DNA of 64,000 nt, taken from the NCBI RefSeq assembly GCF_900167525.1, contig NZ_FUZQ01000006.1:1-64000 (forward strand). Direction: 5' to 3'. The notes below the pieces were generated by a model. That model did not search any database, had not been told where the DNA came from, and saw only the letters and a list, made by a program, of their open reading frames with translations. A program made the translations under genes and the position numbers. Source of the DNA: Krasilnikoviella flava. Its GTDB lineage: Bacteria > Actinomycetota > Actinomycetes > Actinomycetales > Cellulomonadaceae. Each line of letters opens with the position of its first letter. Positions within the stretch are counted from its first letter, which is position 1. Shown here in pieces: positions 55,315 to 64,000 of the stretch.

Positions 55315-56400
55315 TCAGTCGCGGAGCAGGGGCAGCAGCTGCTCGCCCTGGCGGCGGATCTCGTCCAGGTACGGGGTGTCCGAGAGCACGAAGTGCGTGA
55401 CGCCGAGGTCCTGGTAGCGGCGCAGCGACTTCGCGACGTCGGACGGCGAGCCCACCAGCCACGTGGTCCCGGCCCCGCCGCCCCCGGCACGCGCCGGGGC
55501 GGTGTACAGGTTCTCGTCGAGCACGTCGCCGCGCGCGGCGAGGTCGAGCAGTCGCTGCTGCCCCACGGCGACGGGCCGGTCCGCGGCCCGGTGGTCGGCG
55601 TCCCGGCGCCAGCCCTGCCGCCCCGACGACTCCGCGAGCTGCGCCACCTTCGCCTCGGCGTCGCGCCAGGCCTCGTCGGTCGTGTCGCGGACGAAGGTCG
55701 TGACGCGCAGCCCGAACTGCAGCGGCGCGAGCCCCCGGCCGACCCGCTCGCTCAGCGCGCGCAGCCGCTCGATCCGCTCGGCGACGCCGTCCAGCGGCTC
55801 GCCCCAGAAGAGCTGCACGTCCGCCTCGGCCGCCGCCACCTCCTCCGCCTCCGGCGACGCGCCGCCGAAGTAGAGCGTCGGGTGCGGGCGCGCGTCCCGG
55901 GCGACGGGCCGCAGCGGCAGCGTGGCGCCGGCGGCCCGGTAGTGCTCGCCGTCGAACGTCACGTCGTCCTGCGTCCACAGCCGGCGCACCAGCTGCAGGA
56001 ACTCGCGCGTGCGGGCGTACCTCGCCGCCCGGTCGGTGACGTCGTCGCCGTACTGCGCGACGCCGTCCTGCCCCGACACGATGTTGATCCGCACCCGGCC
56101 GCCCGTGAGGTGATCGAGGGTGGCGGCCGCCGACGCGAGGTGCGCGGGCTGCCAGTAGCCGGGCCGGATCGCGATCAGCGGGTTGAACGTCGTGGTGCGC
56201 GCGGCGAGAGCCGCCGCCACGGTGAACGTGTCGGGGCGGCCCCAGCCGGTGCCGAGCAGCGCGCCGTCCCAGCCGTGCTCCTCGAGGGCGAGCGCCTGCT
56301 CGGCGAGGGAGTCGAGGCTGTTGTGGTCCGCCGTCACGGAGTCGCCACGGTGCCCCGGCCGCGCCTGGTTGGGGATGTACCAGAGGACGTCGGCGCTCAT
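55315..56400 (-). CDS. SsuD-like FMN-dependent alkanesulfonate monooxygenase (LLM class)
   Basis: A 361-residue luciferase-like flavin monooxygenase that probably desulfonates organosulfur compounds to sulfite and aldehyde. Typical sequence: VLWYIPNQARPGHRGD, HGWDGALLGTG, FNPLIAIRPGYWQPAHLASA, LDHLTGGRVRINIVSGQD, and LYFGGASPEAEEVAA. ATG 56400 overlaps the stop codon of the second monooxygenase gene. It is the last gene of an operon with an SsuABC-like importer. A flavin reductase, needed to supply FMNH2, is not encoded in the operon. Confidence 0.88.
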   Translation of the reverse strand: MSADVLWYIPNQARPGHRGDSVTADHNSLDSLAEQALALEEHGWDGALLGTGWGRPDTFTVAAALAARTTTFNPLIAIRPGYWQPAHLASAAATLDHLTGGRVRINIVSGQDGVAQYGDDVTDRAARYARTREFLQLVRRLWTQDDVTFDGEHYRAAGATLPLRPVARDARPHPTLYFGGASPEAEEVAAAEADVQLFWGEPLDGVAERIERLRALSERVGRGLAPLQFGLRVTTFVRDTTDEAWRDAEAKVAQLAESSGRQGWRRDADHRAADRPVAVGQQRLLDLAARGDVLDENLYTAPARAGGGGAGTTWLVGSPSDVAKSLRRYQDLGVTHFVLSDTPYLDEIRRQGEQLLPLLRD

Positions 56401-57794
56401 GCCCCCACCCCCGCGAGCTCGGCCGTGGTCCGGGCCCCCGCCGTCGACGACGGGTACCGGCTCGCGGGCCGCTCGAGCCCGTAGTGCTCGCGCAGCGTGG
56501 TGCCCTCGTAGGCGGTGCGGAACAGCCCGCGCTCCTGCAGGATCGGCACGACGTGCCCCGTGAACTCCTCCAGTCCGCGCGGTAGCACGGCCGGCATGAC
56601 GTTGAAGCCGTCGGCGGCCTCTGCGTCGTACCACTCCTGCAGGGCGTCGGCGATCTGCTCGGGCGTGCCGGCCAGGGTGCGGTGCCCGCGCCCGCCGCCG
56701 AGGCGGCCGATGAGCTCGCGGACGGTCAACCGCTCGCGCCGCGCCAGCTCCACGATCAGCGTGTACCGGCTCTTGGCACCCTCGATCTCGTCCTCGTCGG
56801 GCAGGTCGGCGGGCAGCTGCCGGTCCAGCGGCAGGTCCTCGGGGTCGACGCGCAGGGTCGCGGCGAGCTGCCGGCGCGCGTACTCGGGCACGATGAGCTC
56901 GTCGAGCTCACGCTCGGCCGCGAGCGCCTCCGCCTCCGTGGACCCGAGGACGGGCACGATGCCGGGCAGGATCTTGACGCCCTGGGGGTCGCGCCCCGCT
57001 GCGACGGTCCGCGTCTTGAGGTCGGCGTAGAAGGCCCGGGCGTCGCCCAGGGTCTGGTGCGCCGTGAAGACGGCCTCGGCGTACCGCGCCGCGAGCGTCC
57101 TGCCGTCCTCGGACGACCCGGCCTGCACGATGAGCGGCCGCGCCTGGGGGCTGCGCGGGGTGGTGAGCGCGCCCGCGACGGAGAAGTGCTCGCCGACGTG
57201 CGCGGCCGGGTGGATCTTTCTCGCGTCCGCCCAGACGCCCTGCTCCTTGTCGCCGAGCACGGCGTCGTCGTCCCACGAGTCCCACAGCTTGTACGCGACG
57301 TCGAGGAACTCGGCCGCGCGCTGGTAGCGCACGGCGTGCGCGGGCTGGTCGTCGAGGCCGAAGTTGCGCGCGACGTCCGGGCCGGCCGTCGTCACGACGT
57401 TCCACCCGGCGCGCCCGCCCGAGACGATGTCGATGGAGGCGAACCGTCGCGCCAGGTTGTACGGCGAGTTGTAGGTGGTGGACGCCGTCGCGATGAGGCC
57501 GATCCGCTCGGTCGCGGCGGCGAGCGCGGTGAGCACGATCAGCGGGTCGAGCGACCCGGCGGGGCGGCGCCCGACGTCGCTGCGCAGGCCGGGGCCGTCG
57601 GCGAAGAAGACGGAGTCCAGCAGGCCGTCCTCCGCCGTGCGGGCGAGCCGCTGCAGATAGGCGAGGTCCGTGGACGTGTGGTCCGGCGAGCTCTCCGGCA
57701 GCCGCCACGACGCCTCGTGGTGGCCGGTGCTCATGAGGAACGCGTTGAGGTGGAAGCGGCCGGGCCGGTGCCCGGTGGCGGCGTCGCGGGTCAT
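56397..57794 (-). CDS. LLM flavin monooxygenase, NtaA/SnaA/DszA family
   Basis: A 465-residue luciferase-like monooxygenase. It begins FHLNAFLMSTGHHEASWRLP, typical of the NtaA/SnaA/DszA group, with SVFFADGPGLRSDVG, TASTTYNSPYNLARRFAS and GWNVVTTAGPDVARNFG following. ATG 57794 overlaps the stop codon of the ATPase gene, and its own stop overlaps the next monooxygenase start. DszA acts on dibenzothiophene sulfone and others on dimethyl sulfone or nitrilotriacetate; the SsuABC-like neighbours and the cysteine-rich leader favour a sulfur compound. Confidence 0.9.
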   Translation of the reverse strand: MTRDAATGHRPGRFHLNAFLMSTGHHEASWRLPESSPDHTSTDLAYLQRLARTAEDGLLDSVFFADGPGLRSDVGRRPAGSLDPLIVLTALAAATERIGLIATASTTYNSPYNLARRFASIDIVSGGRAGWNVVTTAGPDVARNFGLDDQPAHAVRYQRAAEFLDVAYKLWDSWDDDAVLGDKEQGVWADARKIHPAAHVGEHFSVAGALTTPRSPQARPLIVQAGSSEDGRTLAARYAEAVFTAHQTLGDARAFYADLKTRTVAAGRDPQGVKILPGIVPVLGSTEAEALAAERELDELIVPEYARRQLAATLRVDPEDLPLDRQLPADLPDEDEIEGAKSRYTLIVELARRERLTVRELIGRLGGGRGHRTLAGTPEQIADALQEWYDAEAADGFNVMPAVLPRGLEEFTGHVVPILQERGLFRTAYEGTTLREHYGLERPASRYPSSTAGARTTAELAGVGA

Positions 57795-58561
57795 GCGGTC
57801 ACGTCCTTCCGGTCGACGCCGAGGGCGTCGAGCAGCTCGGTGCGGATGGCGGCGAAGCGGGGGTCGGCGGCGTCGCGCGCGCCGCCCAGGTCGATGCGGC
57901 GCTCGACCGCGATGCGGCCGCGGTCGAGGACGACGACGCGGTCGGCGAGCACGATCGCCTCGTCGACGTCGTGGGTCACGAGCAGCACGGCCGGCCGGTG
58001 CCGGGCGTACAGGTCGCGCAGCAGCGTGTGCATGCGGATGCGGGTGAGGGCGTCCAGGGCCCCGAACGGCTCGTCCGCCAGCAGCAGCTGCGGCGAGCGC
58101 ACCAGCGACCGGGCCAGGGAGACCCGCTGCTGCTCGCCGCCGGACAGCTCGTTCGGCCACGCAAGTTCCCGACCGGCGAGACCGACCTCGGCCAGGGCGG
58201 CCCGGCCGGCGTCGCGCGCAGCACGCCGCGCGCCGCCGAGACCGAGGACGACGTTGTCCAGCACCCGCGCCCACGGCAGCAGCCGCGAGTCCTGGAACAC
58301 GACGGACACCTGGTCGGGCACGCGCACCTCACCGGTGCCCGCGACGCCGTGGTCGAGGCCCGCGAGCGCCCGCAGCAGCGTCGACTTGCCGGAGCCGCTC
58401 CGGCCCAGGATCGCGACGAACTCCCCCGCGCCGAGCTCCAGGTCGAGGTCGTCCAGCACCCGGTCCTCGCCGTACGCGCGCACGAGGCCGCGGACGGCGA
58501 CGGCGGGGGCGTCGGCGGGAACCTCGACGACGGCGGTCAGTCCTCCAGCGTGCGTCGCCAT
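57791..58561 (-). CDS. ssuB: sulfonate-type ABC transporter ATPase (SsuB-like)
   Basis: A 256-residue ATPase with Walker A GRSGSGKST at 53-61, Q-loop VVFQDSRLLPW near 87-97, signature LSGGEQQR at 139-146 and Walker B LLLADEP at 159-165, followed by the H-loop LLVTHDVDEA. The short length without a TOBE domain and the DSRLLPW segment are typical of SsuB/TauB proteins. ATG 58561 lies 25 bases inside the permease gene, and the stop codon overlaps the next gene. Nitrate and taurine transport ATPases are close relatives; the monooxygenases point to sulfonates. Confidence 0.9.
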   Translation of the reverse strand: MATHAGGLTAVVEVPADAPAVAVRGLVRAYGEDRVLDDLDLELGAGEFVAILGRSGSGKSTLLRALAGLDHGVAGTGEVRVPDQVSVVFQDSRLLPWARVLDNVVLGLGGARRAARDAGRAALAEVGLAGRELAWPNELSGGEQQRVSLARSLVRSPQLLLADEPFGALDALTRIRMHTLLRDLYARHRPAVLLVTHDVDEAIVLADRVVVLDRGRIAVERRIDLGGARDAADPRFAAIRTELLDALGVDRKDVTA

Positions 58562-59445
58562 GCGAGCGCCCTCCTCTGCAGCAGGCGGACGGCGGCGTCG
58601 GCACTGAAGCCGAGGACGCCGTAGACGACGAGGCCGACGATGATGACCTCGGTCTGGCCGTAGGTGCGGGCGAGCTCCATCATGTAGCCGATGCCCGCGG
58701 TGGCGTTGACCTGCTCGACGACGACCAGCGACAGCAGGGACCCGGTGACGGCGAACCGCAGGCCGAGCAGGAAGCCGGGCAGCGCGCCGGGCAGCACGAC
58801 GCGGCGCACGAATTGCGGCCGGCTCAGCCGCACGGTCTCGGCCAGCTCCACGTACCGGGAGTCGATCGAGCGCAGCCCGTTGTGCGTGTGCAGGTAGATC
58901 GGGATGAAGACGCCGAGCGCGATGGTGATGACCTTCATCGGCTCGCCGATGCCGAACCACAGGATGAGCAGGGGCAGCAGCGCGAGGTTCGGGATGGCGC
59001 GCTTGACCTGGATCGGGCCGTCGAGCAGCGCGTCGCCGACCCGGCTCAGCCCGGAGGCGAGCGCCAGCACGACGCCCGCCGCGACGCCCCAGGCCAGGCC
59101 CAGGGCCGCGCGGGTCAGCGAGACCCCCAGGTTCTCCTGCAGGTCGCCCTGGGCGATCAGGTCGCCGGCCGTCGTGACCACCGTCCACGGCGCGCTGAGC
59201 ACCCGCTGGTCGATGAGCCCCGAGGCGGAGCCGGCCACCCACACGCCGACCAGGACGGCGACGCCGACCAGCCCGGCCGCGGGGACCGGGCGGCCGAGCC
59301 CGAGCCGTCGTCCGGCGGGGCGGTCGTCGGGCCGGGGGCCGGGGCGGACGCCGGGCGGCCCGCCCGGGCGGCCCGGTGCCGGCTCCGTCGAGGTCCGGGC
59401 GCGGGGCACCGTGCCCGCCCGCGTCGCGGTGCCGAGCGCGGTCAC
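58537..59445 (-). CDS. ssuC: sulfonate-type ABC transporter permease (SsuC-like)
   Basis: A 302-residue permease with a long Pro/Arg-rich N-terminal tail (about 55 residues) and six helices, starting VPAAGLVGVAVLVGVWVAGS. The family loop SRYVELAETVRLSRPQFVRR and KRAIPNLALLPLLILWFGIG are characteristic of the SsuC/TauC/NrtB group. GTG 59445 overlaps the stop codon of the binding-protein gene (GTGA). It acts with the ATPase and binding protein on either side. Confidence 0.92.
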   Translation of the reverse strand: MTALGTATRAGTVPRARTSTEPAPGRPGGPPGVRPGPRPDDRPAGRRLGLGRPVPAAGLVGVAVLVGVWVAGSASGLIDQRVLSAPWTVVTTAGDLIAQGDLQENLGVSLTRAALGLAWGVAAGVVLALASGLSRVGDALLDGPIQVKRAIPNLALLPLLILWFGIGEPMKVITIALGVFIPIYLHTHNGLRSIDSRYVELAETVRLSRPQFVRRVVLPGALPGFLLGLRFAVTGSLLSLVVVEQVNATAGIGYMMELARTYGQTEVIIVGLVVYGVLGFSADAAVRLLQRRALAWRRTLED

Positions 59446-60557
59446 CGGCCCTCCTCCGCGGCGCGCTGCGCCTCGACGCCCGCCGTCTGCGCCGCGACGA
59501 ACCGCTGGTCGAACAGGTCGGCCGCGTCGAGCGGGTCCTCGCCGAGCTCCGTCGAGAGCAGGTCGATCGTGTCCTGCGTGCGCGCGATGCCCTCGGTGAG
59601 GTCGGCGGGGATGTCCGGCACCGCGGCGTGGTCGATGAGGTACTGGGCGTCCTCGTCGGTCAGCCCCTCGTGCTCGACGTAGTACCCCTGCTTCCACTCC
59701 TCGGGGTGCTCCGCGACCCACACCTTCGCCTTCGCCCACACCTCGACGTACTCGTGCAGGGCGGCGGCCTTGGCCGGGTCCTCGAGCACGGCCTTCGGCG
59801 CGTAGAGGTGTCCGGCGTCGTCCCGCAGACCGTGCCTGACCGACTGCGCGCCGTCCGCCTCGTACTTCGTGAGGTAGCGGAACAGCTGGGTGCCGCCGAG
59901 CGGCGCGACGTCCACCTCCCCCGCGGCCAGCGCCGTGGAGTACACGTCGCCGGTGCTGGGCAGCTCGACGAGCTCGACGTCGTCCTGGGTCAGCCCTGCC
60001 GCGCCCAACGCCTTGAGCACCAGCGCGCCCTGCGCCTGGCCGGGGCTGAACGCGATGCGCTTGCCGGCCAGGTCGTCGAGGGAACCCAGCGTCAGGCCGG
60101 GCCGCCCGGCCAGCTCGTAGACCGGGGCGTCCTGCCAGTTCTCGCGGTACTGGGTGGCGACGATCGACACCGGCACGCCCGTCCACGTGGCGTGGATGGG
60201 CGGGATCTCCGCGACCGCGCCGACGTCGAGCGACTCGGCGCGGAACGCCTCGATGGTCTGCGGCCCGCCCGACAGGTTGGCCCACTCCAGGTCGAACGAG
60301 AGGTCGTGCTCGATCTCGTCGCCGGCCAGCTCGAGCGCGACCTCGGTGGTCGGGTCGCCGACGACGAGCGTGGTGCCGTCGGGCACCGTGGACGGCAGGG
60401 GGTCGGAGGCGGCGAGCGTGCCGCCGGCGCCGTCGGCGGCGGCGTCGGCGGCGCAGCCGGCGGTGCCCAGCAGCGCGACGACGCCGACGGCGGCGGCCAC
60501 GGCGTGCCGGGCGGTCGGGCCGGCGAGCGCGGGACGGGTGAGGGTGGTTCGGGGCAT
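59442..60557 (-). CDS. ssuA: sulfonate-type ABC substrate-binding lipoprotein (SsuA-like)
   Basis: A 371-residue binding protein with lipobox LGTAGC near residue 35 and an Ala/Gly/Asp linker. The fold matches the NMT1/SsuA group (FDLEWANLSGGPQTIEAFRA, DVGAVAEIPPIHAT, FSPGQAQGALVLKAL). ATG 60557 follows GAGAGGA with six bases between. The 138-base stretch to the upstream leader peptide contains a hairpin just before the ribosome-binding site. As first structural gene of the operon it is the likely target of leader-peptide control by cysteine supply. Confidence 0.9.
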   Translation of the reverse strand: MPRTTLTRPALAGPTARHAVAAAVGVVALLGTAGCAADAAADGAGGTLAASDPLPSTVPDGTTLVVGDPTTEVALELAGDEIEHDLSFDLEWANLSGGPQTIEAFRAESLDVGAVAEIPPIHATWTGVPVSIVATQYRENWQDAPVYELAGRPGLTLGSLDDLAGKRIAFSPGQAQGALVLKALGAAGLTQDDVELVELPSTGDVYSTALAAGEVDVAPLGGTQLFRYLTKYEADGAQSVRHGLRDDAGHLYAPKAVLEDPAKAAALHEYVEVWAKAKVWVAEHPEEWKQGYYVEHEGLTDEDAQYLIDHAAVPDIPADLTEGIARTQDTIDLLSTELGEDPLDAADLFDQRFVAAQTAGVEAQRAAEEGR

Positions 60558-60573
60558 GACGGGTCCTCTCGGG

Positions 60574-60605
60574 GCGTGCGGGGGTACGCCACGTCACCCG
60601 CACGC
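60574..60605 (-). promoter_or_regulatory. hairpin next to the ssuA ribosome-binding site
   Basis: GCGTGCGGG (60605-60597 region on the transcribed strand) pairs exactly with CCCGCACGC over nine bases with a 14-base loop. The stem ends three bases before the GAGAGGA sequence (60570-60564) of ssuA. It could regulate translation or be the terminator-like element of an attenuator that starts with the upstream leader peptide. Confidence 0.45.
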
Positions 60606-60695
60606 ACGACGGCGGACGGGGCGGTGGTCTCGAGCGGGGTGGTGCCGGAGGCGCGGCTCAGCGACGACGGGCCGGCTGCTCAGCTCGCGGGTGGC

Positions 60696-60800
60696 TCAGC
60701 GACAGCGACGACAGGGCCGACAGCGCCGGCAGGCGCACGGCGCGGCGGGCCCCGCGGTGCGGGTGCCCGGGGACCGTAGTCCGTTCGCGTCGGCGTGCAT
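60696..60800 (-). CDS. cysteine-rich leader peptide of the sulfonate operon
   Basis: A 34-codon frame whose last third reads APCACRRCRPCRRCR: five Cys codons in 12 positions (residues 22, 24, 27, 30, 33), close to the stop codon. It lies 138 bases before ssuA on the same strand. Translation that stalls when Cys-tRNA is short would signal sulfur need, as known for Cys-containing leader peptides before sulfur genes in other actinobacteria. ATG 60800 lacks a ribosome-binding site, but TACCTT at 60812-60807 lies six bases before it, as expected of a leaderless transcript. The peptide is predicted only from sequence; Arg-rich GC sequence can give Cys codons by chance. Confidence 0.65.
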   Translation of the reverse strand: MHADANGLRSPGTRTAGPAAPCACRRCRPCRRCR

Positions 60801-60954
60801 GCGGGGAAGGTAGGCGCCTGGCAAGGCCTGCGCGAGAGATCGCCGGAAAGTCTCACGATGCGGACCCGCCGACCCCCGTCGGTGGGCGCCGTCAGGACGA
60901 GGACCCTGATGACCGGTTCCTGACGGCTCCTGACAGTACCGGGCGGGCACGACG

Positions 60955-60989
60955 AAGGCCCCGGACCCTGTGAGGGGGTCCGGGGCCTT
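60955..60989 (-). terminator. terminator of clpC
   Basis: AAGGCCCCGGACCC and its exact complement form a 14-base-pair stem around a seven-base loop, 33 bases after the clpC stop codon. This is the strongest classical hairpin in the window. Only a short TTCGTC follows, without a T-run. The adjacent 60813-60954 region shows no gene. Confidence 0.85.
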
Positions 60990-61021
60990 GTCGTCGACCG
61001 TCAGGTCAGTGGATCAGCGCG

Positions 61022-63589
<2,568 letters not shown>

Positions 63590-63806
63590 GTGCTGCTCCC
63601 TCACGAGCGGCGTTTCCTGCACCCCGTCGGTTGACGGCTACAGCCTGACCGCTACGACTCTATGCGCTCCCAACTCCCCGGCCCCCCTCGGTAAGCCCAT
63701 GTTCGCCAGGGGCGTGACGGCGTGCCGCGTTGCCACCCGCGGGAGGTGCGTCCACGCTCGGAGGAAGGCGGTCGTCGCCGCGGGGATCGCCACCGAGGGG
63801 GTACCG

Positions 63807-64000
63807 ATGGACGAGCTCGAGCAGCAGCCGGGAGCCACGGGCGGGGCGGGGCACGACGCGAGACCGCGGGCGTGGAACGGTGACGACGCGCGCCTGGCGC
63901 AGTTCTCCGGCGTCCTCGGCGAGGTGCACGACCCCCTGACCTGGGGGCTCGACCTGGAGGACGAGGCCCTCACCGGGCACTCGGACTCCGAGGACCCGAC
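63807..64000 (+). CDS. start of an unidentified gene, cut by the window edge
   Basis: ATG 63807 is preceded by GAGGGGG at a good distance and opens a frame of 64 codons that has no stop before the window ends. The peptide is acidic and hydrophilic (MDELEQQPGATGGAGHDARP at the start, LTWGLDLEDEALTGHSDSED near the edge). I recognise no family. It diverges from clpC; the 217 bases between them hold no other clear gene. Confidence is limited by the short visible part. Confidence 0.45.
   Translation, partial: MDELEQQPGATGGAGHDARPRAWNGDDARLAQFSGVLGEVHDPLTWGLDLEDEALTGHSDSEDP

Follow-up and report, generated by a model that had tools for sequence, protein, structure and literature searches.

The stretch of Krasilnikoviella flava DNA analysed here (the window, 64,000 nucleotides) contains five tightly packed genes with short overlaps on the minus strand, on which all features of leader and operon given below are located. 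Their order is an ssuA-like gene for a solute-binding lipoprotein (59442..60557; TIGR01728 with E 1.1e-23, below its cut-off, and PF09084 above cut-off), an ssuC-like permease gene (58537..59445) and an ssuB-like ATPase gene (57791..58561), both with best or near-best matches below the curated cut-off, a gene for an FMN-dependent monooxygenase of the NtaA/DmoA family (56397..57794; TIGR03860), which is the only match of the operon above an NCBIfam cut-off, and a gene for an SsuD-like alkanesulfonate monooxygenase (55315..56400; best hits NF001939 and TIGR03565, below cut-off). The gene starts are our own choice. An earlier reading of this DNA, made from the sequence alone (the sequence-only reading), had proposed an SsuABC-monooxygenase operon. 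The five genes are indeed present; since the Ssu and SsuD-like matches remain below the curated cut-offs and were assigned by best hit, sulfonate is a presumed substrate. The ssuA-like gene is preceded by the Shine-Dalgarno word GAGAGGA (60564..60570), which recurs in the nearest ortholog and in several others. On the other side of the intergenic region lies a putative clpC-like gene (61022-63622). Between this gene and the leader described below, a strong inverted repeat was seen by eye at 60948-60990 (aaggccccggaccc ... gggtccggggcctt). It is also present in the nearest ortholog and is probably the terminator of the upstream gene.

Ahead of ssuA we detected a Cys-rich leader peptide frame of 34 codons plus TGA (60696..60800). 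The translated peptide carries Cys at positions 22, 24, 27, 30 and 33, with C-x-x-C spacings among them, and then a single Arg, the last Cys codon being placed one codon ahead of the UGA. The Cys codons together with the final Arg codon (60699..60737) form the stretch at which stalling would be expected. A predicted -10 box, TACCTT, is found six bases 5′ of the ATG (60807..60812) and suggests a putative leaderless transcript. This spacing between box and ATG, the aspect of the start that was examined, is the one expected of an actinobacterial leaderless start. Direct reading of the sequence revealed no purine-rich Shine-Dalgarno stretch before the leader ATG. Hence the frame with five Cys in 12 positions just before its stop, the position of the box and the lack of a Shine-Dalgarno sequence are all as the sequence-only reading had described them. 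Both strands of the window together contain 290 frames of 10-60 codons that start with ATG, nested starts being taken one by one; of these, the leader is the only one with at least four Cys in 13 residues, and also the only one with TANNNT 5-9 bases 5′ of its ATG. Dinucleotide shuffling of 60558-61021 gave a frame with at least four Cys in 13 in 0 of 3000 cases; the Cys cluster is not a product of chance.

The nearest ortholog (genome G005, SsuA 90% identical) has the same upstream gene, a TACCTT box seven bases from the ATG and a leader of 35 codons, which retains four of the five Cys codons and has Arg in place of the other. Within the genus, SsuA orthologs at E <= 1e-40 are restricted to 2 of 18 genomes, the window's own counted, and at E <= 1e-60 orthologous SsuA was found in 38 of the 221 genomes of the family, distributed over 7 genera. 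One of these (L166) was left out, as its contig ends near the gene. A Cys-rich leader is located upstream of ssuA in 33 of the 37 testable orthologs, again from seven genera, counts which are not independent because the genomes are related; the sequence-only reading had named a lack of such conservation among the outcomes that would refute it, and it passes this test. In total 32 of the leaders come from the scan, and one (L158) was found by hand after the region had been extended and is absent from the 32-row spacer table used below. The leaders were first picked partly for their Cys content, and for this reason our main statistic is a strict rule compared with shuffles and reverse strands: [TC]ANNNT 6-8 bases before an ATG, 8-60 codons, at least two Cys in the last 16 and Cys as penultimate codon. 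This rule is passed by 29 of 37 regions but by none of the 37 reverse strands and none of the 1480 shuffles, so that a conserved Cys leader, in 29 cases with its start box, supports the earlier reading of a Cys leader ahead of the operon.

Four of the eight regions that fail the strict rule do have a leader: L002 carries an additional Arg codon, the start codon of L159 is GTG, and the box differs in L162 and L164. The other four are the orthologs without a leader in the scanned region (L141 and L146 of g8, L150 and L151 of g7). In L150 and L151 another gene appears directly upstream of ssuA, and L141 seems from its sequence to have a leaderless ssuA instead of a leader. L146 shows a start box and a frame beginning MTTTTPTVAPLRCR, with one Cys-Arg pair and no nearby stop, which runs to the ssuA start; it looks like a leader that lost its stop.

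All 32 tabulated leaders end with TGA, and in 30 of them exactly one residue follows the last Cys. Apart from the Cys tail, the peptides diverge between genera and have little in common; the number of Cys in the last 16 codons ranges from 2 to 6, with a spacing that is variable between genera. Over these last 16 codons the 32 leaders, a set chosen partly for Cys, have 101 Cys codons in the leader frame, compared with 20 and 13 in the two alternative frames. A divergent peptide with a fixed Cys tail is typical of a regulatory leader, not of a small protein with a function of its own. Changes at codon positions 1, 2 and 3 amount to 6, 2 and 3 between the two closest leaders (stop column included), and the variable sites of five Cellulosimicrobium-type leaders to 9, 6 and 13; neither set gives a clear sign of selection on the leader peptide.

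Comparable leaders were detected beyond the family. A leader was found in 20 of 56 named loci with SsuA relatives, a count that is not additive to that of the family since the two sets overlap (at least L031 = L002 and L061 = L003). Cys tails like that of the window are present at eight of these loci (Isoptericola, Cellulosimicrobium, one labelled Sphaerisporangium, Antribacter and Luteimicrobium), motif leaders such as TRRAHVDHGHVASAQC at nine (six Nonomuraea, one Sphaerisporangium MAG, Microtetraspora and Actinopolymorpha), and leaders ending in adjacent Cys at three (Rhodococcus phenolicus and two Saccharopolyspora). Orthologous operons can carry either leader type, because both were found at loci with SsuA relatives. 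In the remaining 36 named loci, including five proteobacterial ones and two with fewer than 300 bases upstream, no leader was found; Cys-rich frames in L069, L076, L080, L081, L083 and L085 and some short GTG/TTG frames at other named loci were judged by eye to lie in genes or to be due to chance and are uncounted. The locus L033 (QAPD01000033.1), titled Sphaerisporangium cinnabarinum ATCC 31213, carries the operon and a leader peptide identical to that of L142, a genome of the Cellulosimicrobium group, and for this reason its label looks wrong. Remote SsuA matches at E <= 0.001 were obtained in 29 of 58 relatives, with a convincing leader only at L002 and L003 among the 29 loci scanned, and the viral contigs contain no SsuA relative.

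The comparison with NCBIfam separates these leaders. Of six motif or adjacent-Cys peptides, five have a match to NF042934, NF042933 or NF042936, in each case below cut-off, and the sixth has none; four other leaders with Cys tails hit no family at E up to 10. The leader peptide of the window hits no family at E up to 1 and is not a member of NF042934, NF042933 or NF042936. In relatives, matches to NF042934 at E <= 0.05 are found in 22 of 58 genomes, 7 of them above cut-off, compared with 0 of 14 control genomes. The genome of the window contains one candidate leader of the motif type (NF042934 with 19.9 bits, below the cut-off of 27). This putative second leader (L095; G000:C2:309439-309492, minus strand) ends with LDVDFRRVASALCR and a stop (Ala-Leu-Cys-Arg-stop) and precedes a dicarboxylate/amino acid:cation symporter gene (best hits DctA and GltP, below cut-off). 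Four further genomes of the genus (L118, L121, L125 and L127) show this arrangement of motif leader and symporter, and cystine or a related amino acid would fit as the substrate of the symporter. Elsewhere in the order, reading of the neighbouring genes by eye, with L110, L112, L124, L129 and L130 excluded as their contigs end early, placed motif-type leaders ahead of a gene resembling the CysD subunit of sulfate adenylyltransferase (L109) and of genes resembling cysteine dioxygenase (L131 and L134). In one Mycolicibacterium and two Rhodococcus genomes, the frames that match the mycobacterial families have both the motif and runs of Cys. Two further searches of the window's own genome gave candidates that were rejected: of 10 words of the form Cys-Arg-x-Cys-Arg-stop, 8 were examined and only that of the window has an in-frame start within 250 bases, and the best match to NF042936 (E 0.1, below cut-off) lies inside a long frame.

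A second element is located near the predicted promoter. The sequence GCATCGTGAGACTTTCCGG (60843..60861) is identical or near-identical in the nearest ortholog, and inspection by eye found CATCGTGAGA-like or CATCGTG-like words at similar places upstream of leader promoters in several genera and, in g41, an inverse word resembling TCTCA.GAT (observed at L002, L147-L149, L152 and L153-L171). In some loci TTCC.GGAA-like dyads are present near this word. From its conservation and position, the element may be an operator or activator site, in which case the operon might have two layers of control.

Taken together, the frame probably acts in cis as a leader peptide through which the sulfonate operon senses cysteine. 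Cysteine sensing is further favoured by the presumed role of the operon in sulfur scavenging and by related leaders ahead of other genes in the genus. Against it stand the Cys codon that is missing in the nearest ortholog, codon-position changes without a clear sign of selection on the peptide, the 4 of 37 orthologs with no leader in the scanned region and the restriction of the ortholog to 2 of 18 genomes of the genus. What comparison of the sequences supports is a conserved leader with its start box, Cys codons beside the stop, a C-rich spacer and the lack of an intrinsic terminator; transcript start, translation, stalling, the direction of the response and the participation of Rho are what we infer. 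Transcription would most likely start at the leader ATG, with ribosomes loading on leaderless mRNA. As long as charged Cys-tRNA is plentiful, the ribosome would read to the UGA and leave, exposing a C-rich, G-poor spacer, and transcription would end ahead of ssuA, with Rho as the most likely agent. Under a shortage of cysteine, the ribosome would stall at the Cys codons beside the stop and Rho would be kept off. The transporter of the ssuABC type and the monooxygenases would then be made, and organosulfur would be mined.

The spacer between leader and ssuA (60558..60695), a candidate Rho entry region, is C-rich and G-poor with a C-over-G skew of 0.20. This bias is found in all 32 spacers of the table, each with a skew above 0.15 (median 0.31) and each higher than both the 150 bases before the leader and the first 300 bases of ssuA. 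Control regions upstream of other genes in five genomes (n = 152) have an overall median of 0.03, with genome medians of 0.00-0.08, compared with spacer medians of 0.24-0.34 in five genera. The spacer median of the genus is reached by none of the controls in three genera, by 2% in the genus of the window and by 12% in g11, in a comparison that covers 30 of the 32 spacers (g3 and g7 being without a genus control) and uses one control genome per genus. The spacer of the window itself is the mildest of the 32, and the comparison with 20 other upstream regions of the window showed three that are more skewed. Similar values were obtained for the spacers of motif-type leaders (median 0.28, 18 loci), of adjacent-Cys leaders (median 0.24, 12 loci) and of mycobacterial and rhodococcal leaders (0.18-0.36, eight computed, L201 left out). 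A T-run longer than three was found in none of the 32 spacers, and no terminator-like site at 60400-61100. A classical attenuator with an intrinsic terminator is unlikely on this sequence evidence. A C-over-G region without the U-runs of a terminator thus follows the leader, as in a Rho attenuator, and is indicative only; for the copper leader CruR, in the available part of its description, such a region served as an indicator that termination depends on Rho.

Within cysteine sensing, we rate Rho-dependent attenuation at somewhat less than an even chance. The competing possibility with the best standing is translational attenuation, where the same leader responds to the same cysteine signal but the stalled ribosome breaks a structure that hides the ssuA ribosome site, and transcription is not stopped. 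In M. smegmatis, translational attenuation is reportedly the mode of such leaders. The sequence-only reading had pointed to a nine-base-pair hairpin beside the ssuA ribosome site. This hairpin does exist (60574..60605), with the arms GCGUGCGGG (60597-60605) and CCCGCACGC (60574-60582) and a loop of 14 bases just 5′ of GAGAGGA, but it is not conserved in the nearest ortholog, where by eye only four contiguous pairs remain, and folding gave no stall-dependent switch. In these models the RNA 3′ of the ribosome was folded for nine sequences, with the ribosome placed at each Cys codon and at the stop. The accessibility of the ssuA ribosome site in the window stayed between 0.41 and 0.58 in all modelled states, and none of the nine sequences showed a change at this site specific for stalling at Cys rather than at the stop; this argues weakly against a translational switch, as folding of GC-rich RNA is unreliable. 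The accessibility of the start codon shifts in some sequences, in one of them from 0.14 to 0.65-0.70, but a ribosome at the stop has the same effect. In several relatives, those of the Cellulosimicrobium group, most of the ribosome site is paired in the models when no ribosome is present (accessibility 0.05-0.25), which speaks for a translational mechanism.

The leader region folds no better than its shuffles (z 0.20), and no common structure was found at the leader end, which again speaks against translational attenuation. For riboswitches and other RNA families, Rfam returned for 56000-64000 two sub-threshold matches, neither of them in leader or spacer. A hairpin with the stop codon in its loop appeared suggestive by eye and was rejected by shuffling (3 of 33 below 0.05). 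The spacers have folding z-scores of -3.5 to 2.5 (median -1.2); a few of them fold better than shuffles, but no common structure was seen. On balance we lean modestly towards Rho-dependent over translational attenuation, and to the latter we give a substantial but clearly minor probability. The lean is weakened because the skew of the window is the mildest and 3 of 20 window regions are higher, and the Rho part is argued against because papers citing Canestrari et al. (2020) refer to the M. smegmatis mode, in the parts available, as translational.

Another explanation, which we consider improbable, is that the nascent Cys-rich peptide senses a metal or the redox state, as CruR does for copper, and that charging of Cys-tRNA plays no role. 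The C-x-x-C spacings in the window leader would suit this, and CruR is, according to the available part of its description, a leader with CXXC that acts through Rho and a C-over-G region. However, number and spacing of the Cys vary between genera, unlike a fixed metal site, the operon serves sulfur and not metal, and the Cys codons adjoin the stop codon. That the Cys cluster is an accident of a GC-rich reading frame, with the operon controlled at its promoter only, is very improbable: a second frame of the same DNA gives Leu-Ser repeats, the codon positions that changed between the two most similar leaders give no preference to the Cys frame and the upstream element looks conserved, but shuffles at the locus (0 of 3000), shuffles and reverse strands among relatives (0 of 1480 and 0 of 37) and Cys tails in seven genera with different peptides all oppose it.

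Cys leaders have precedents in actinobacteria, in agreement with the statement of the sequence-only reading that they control sulfur genes in some of them. In the available part of Seliverstov et al. (2005; PMC1262725), Cys leaders were predicted in Mycobacterium, Propionibacterium acnes and Bifidobacterium longum, with Rho as the suggested agent where a terminator is lacking, on support which the authors called weak. Shell et al. (2015), as far as the accessible text goes, described leaderless, Cys-rich frames upstream of mycobacterial genes, one of which was occupied by ribosomes, and Canestrari et al. (2020) is cited, in partial texts, as demonstrating Cys-responsive (translation) attenuation in M. 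smegmatis. Further background came from the available parts of PMC4633059, PMC9094748, PMC9031893, PMC13236596, PMC8079986, PMC4833913 and PMC9426467. Our literature searches found no Cys leader ahead of an ssu operon, which does not prove that there is none in print. So far as these searches show, the operon, the bacterial family, the composition signature throughout the family and a leader missed by the NCBIfam models are new. These findings extend cysteine attenuation, known from mycobacteria, to sulfonate scavenging in another actinobacterial branch. They also show that leaders lacking the RR..D[LF] motif escape the sequence models now in use. A positional signature (box, start, penultimate Cys, stop and C-rich spacer) could find more leaders, and with the spacer bias the long-standing question of the mode of action of Cys leaders without a terminator becomes directly testable. 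As a wider and tentative proposal, rather doubtful as it stands, actinobacterial Cys leaders might be a single class irrespective of the RR..D[LF] motif and of the number of Cys, from one to many. The class would be characterized by leaderless start, Cys against the stop and C-over-G spacer, and in it a Cys-starved ribosome would block Rho. Each sulfur operon would then have its own Rho-gated cysteine sensor, including those now explained by translational attenuation.

With a short frame and Cys codons clustered near its stop ahead of a sulfur operon, the window leader probably belongs, as a new member, to a known functional class, and it lies outside the NCBIfam sequence families. It resembles the mycobacterial polycysteine leaderless short ORFs (the Ms4527A and Ms5788A families, NF042936 and NF042933) in its short frame of predicted leaderless type, in the Cys near the stop and in the association with sulfur genes, and the C-over-G spacer is likewise found for leaders of this type in one Mycolicibacterium and two Rhodococcus genomes. 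Its operon and bacterial family are different, the RR..D[LF]..V motif is absent, none of the models is matched, and folding showed no switch at the ribosome site. The leaders of Seliverstov et al. (2005; PMC1262725) also have Cys runs near the stop, no terminator and a suggested role of Rho; in the available part of that paper they precede cys/cbs genes and their C/U-rich motifs are called not conserved, whereas the window leader precedes an ssu operon and the spacer bias is found in 32 of 32 cases. NF042934, a putative leader peptide family (cis_reg_atten), precedes orthologous ssu operons of other actinobacteria, has the one match below cut-off in the window's own genome and often ends with Cys-Arg-UGA, but its members usually have one Cys and a conserved motif where the window leader has five Cys and no motif. 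TnaC is a Rho-coupled leader frame whose nascent peptide takes part in ligand sensing, and the same is described for CruR in the available part of its source. As in these leaders, a ribosome held at the leader end would keep Rho off a C-rich spacer, but for the window leader codon starvation, and not the nascent peptide, is the expected signal.
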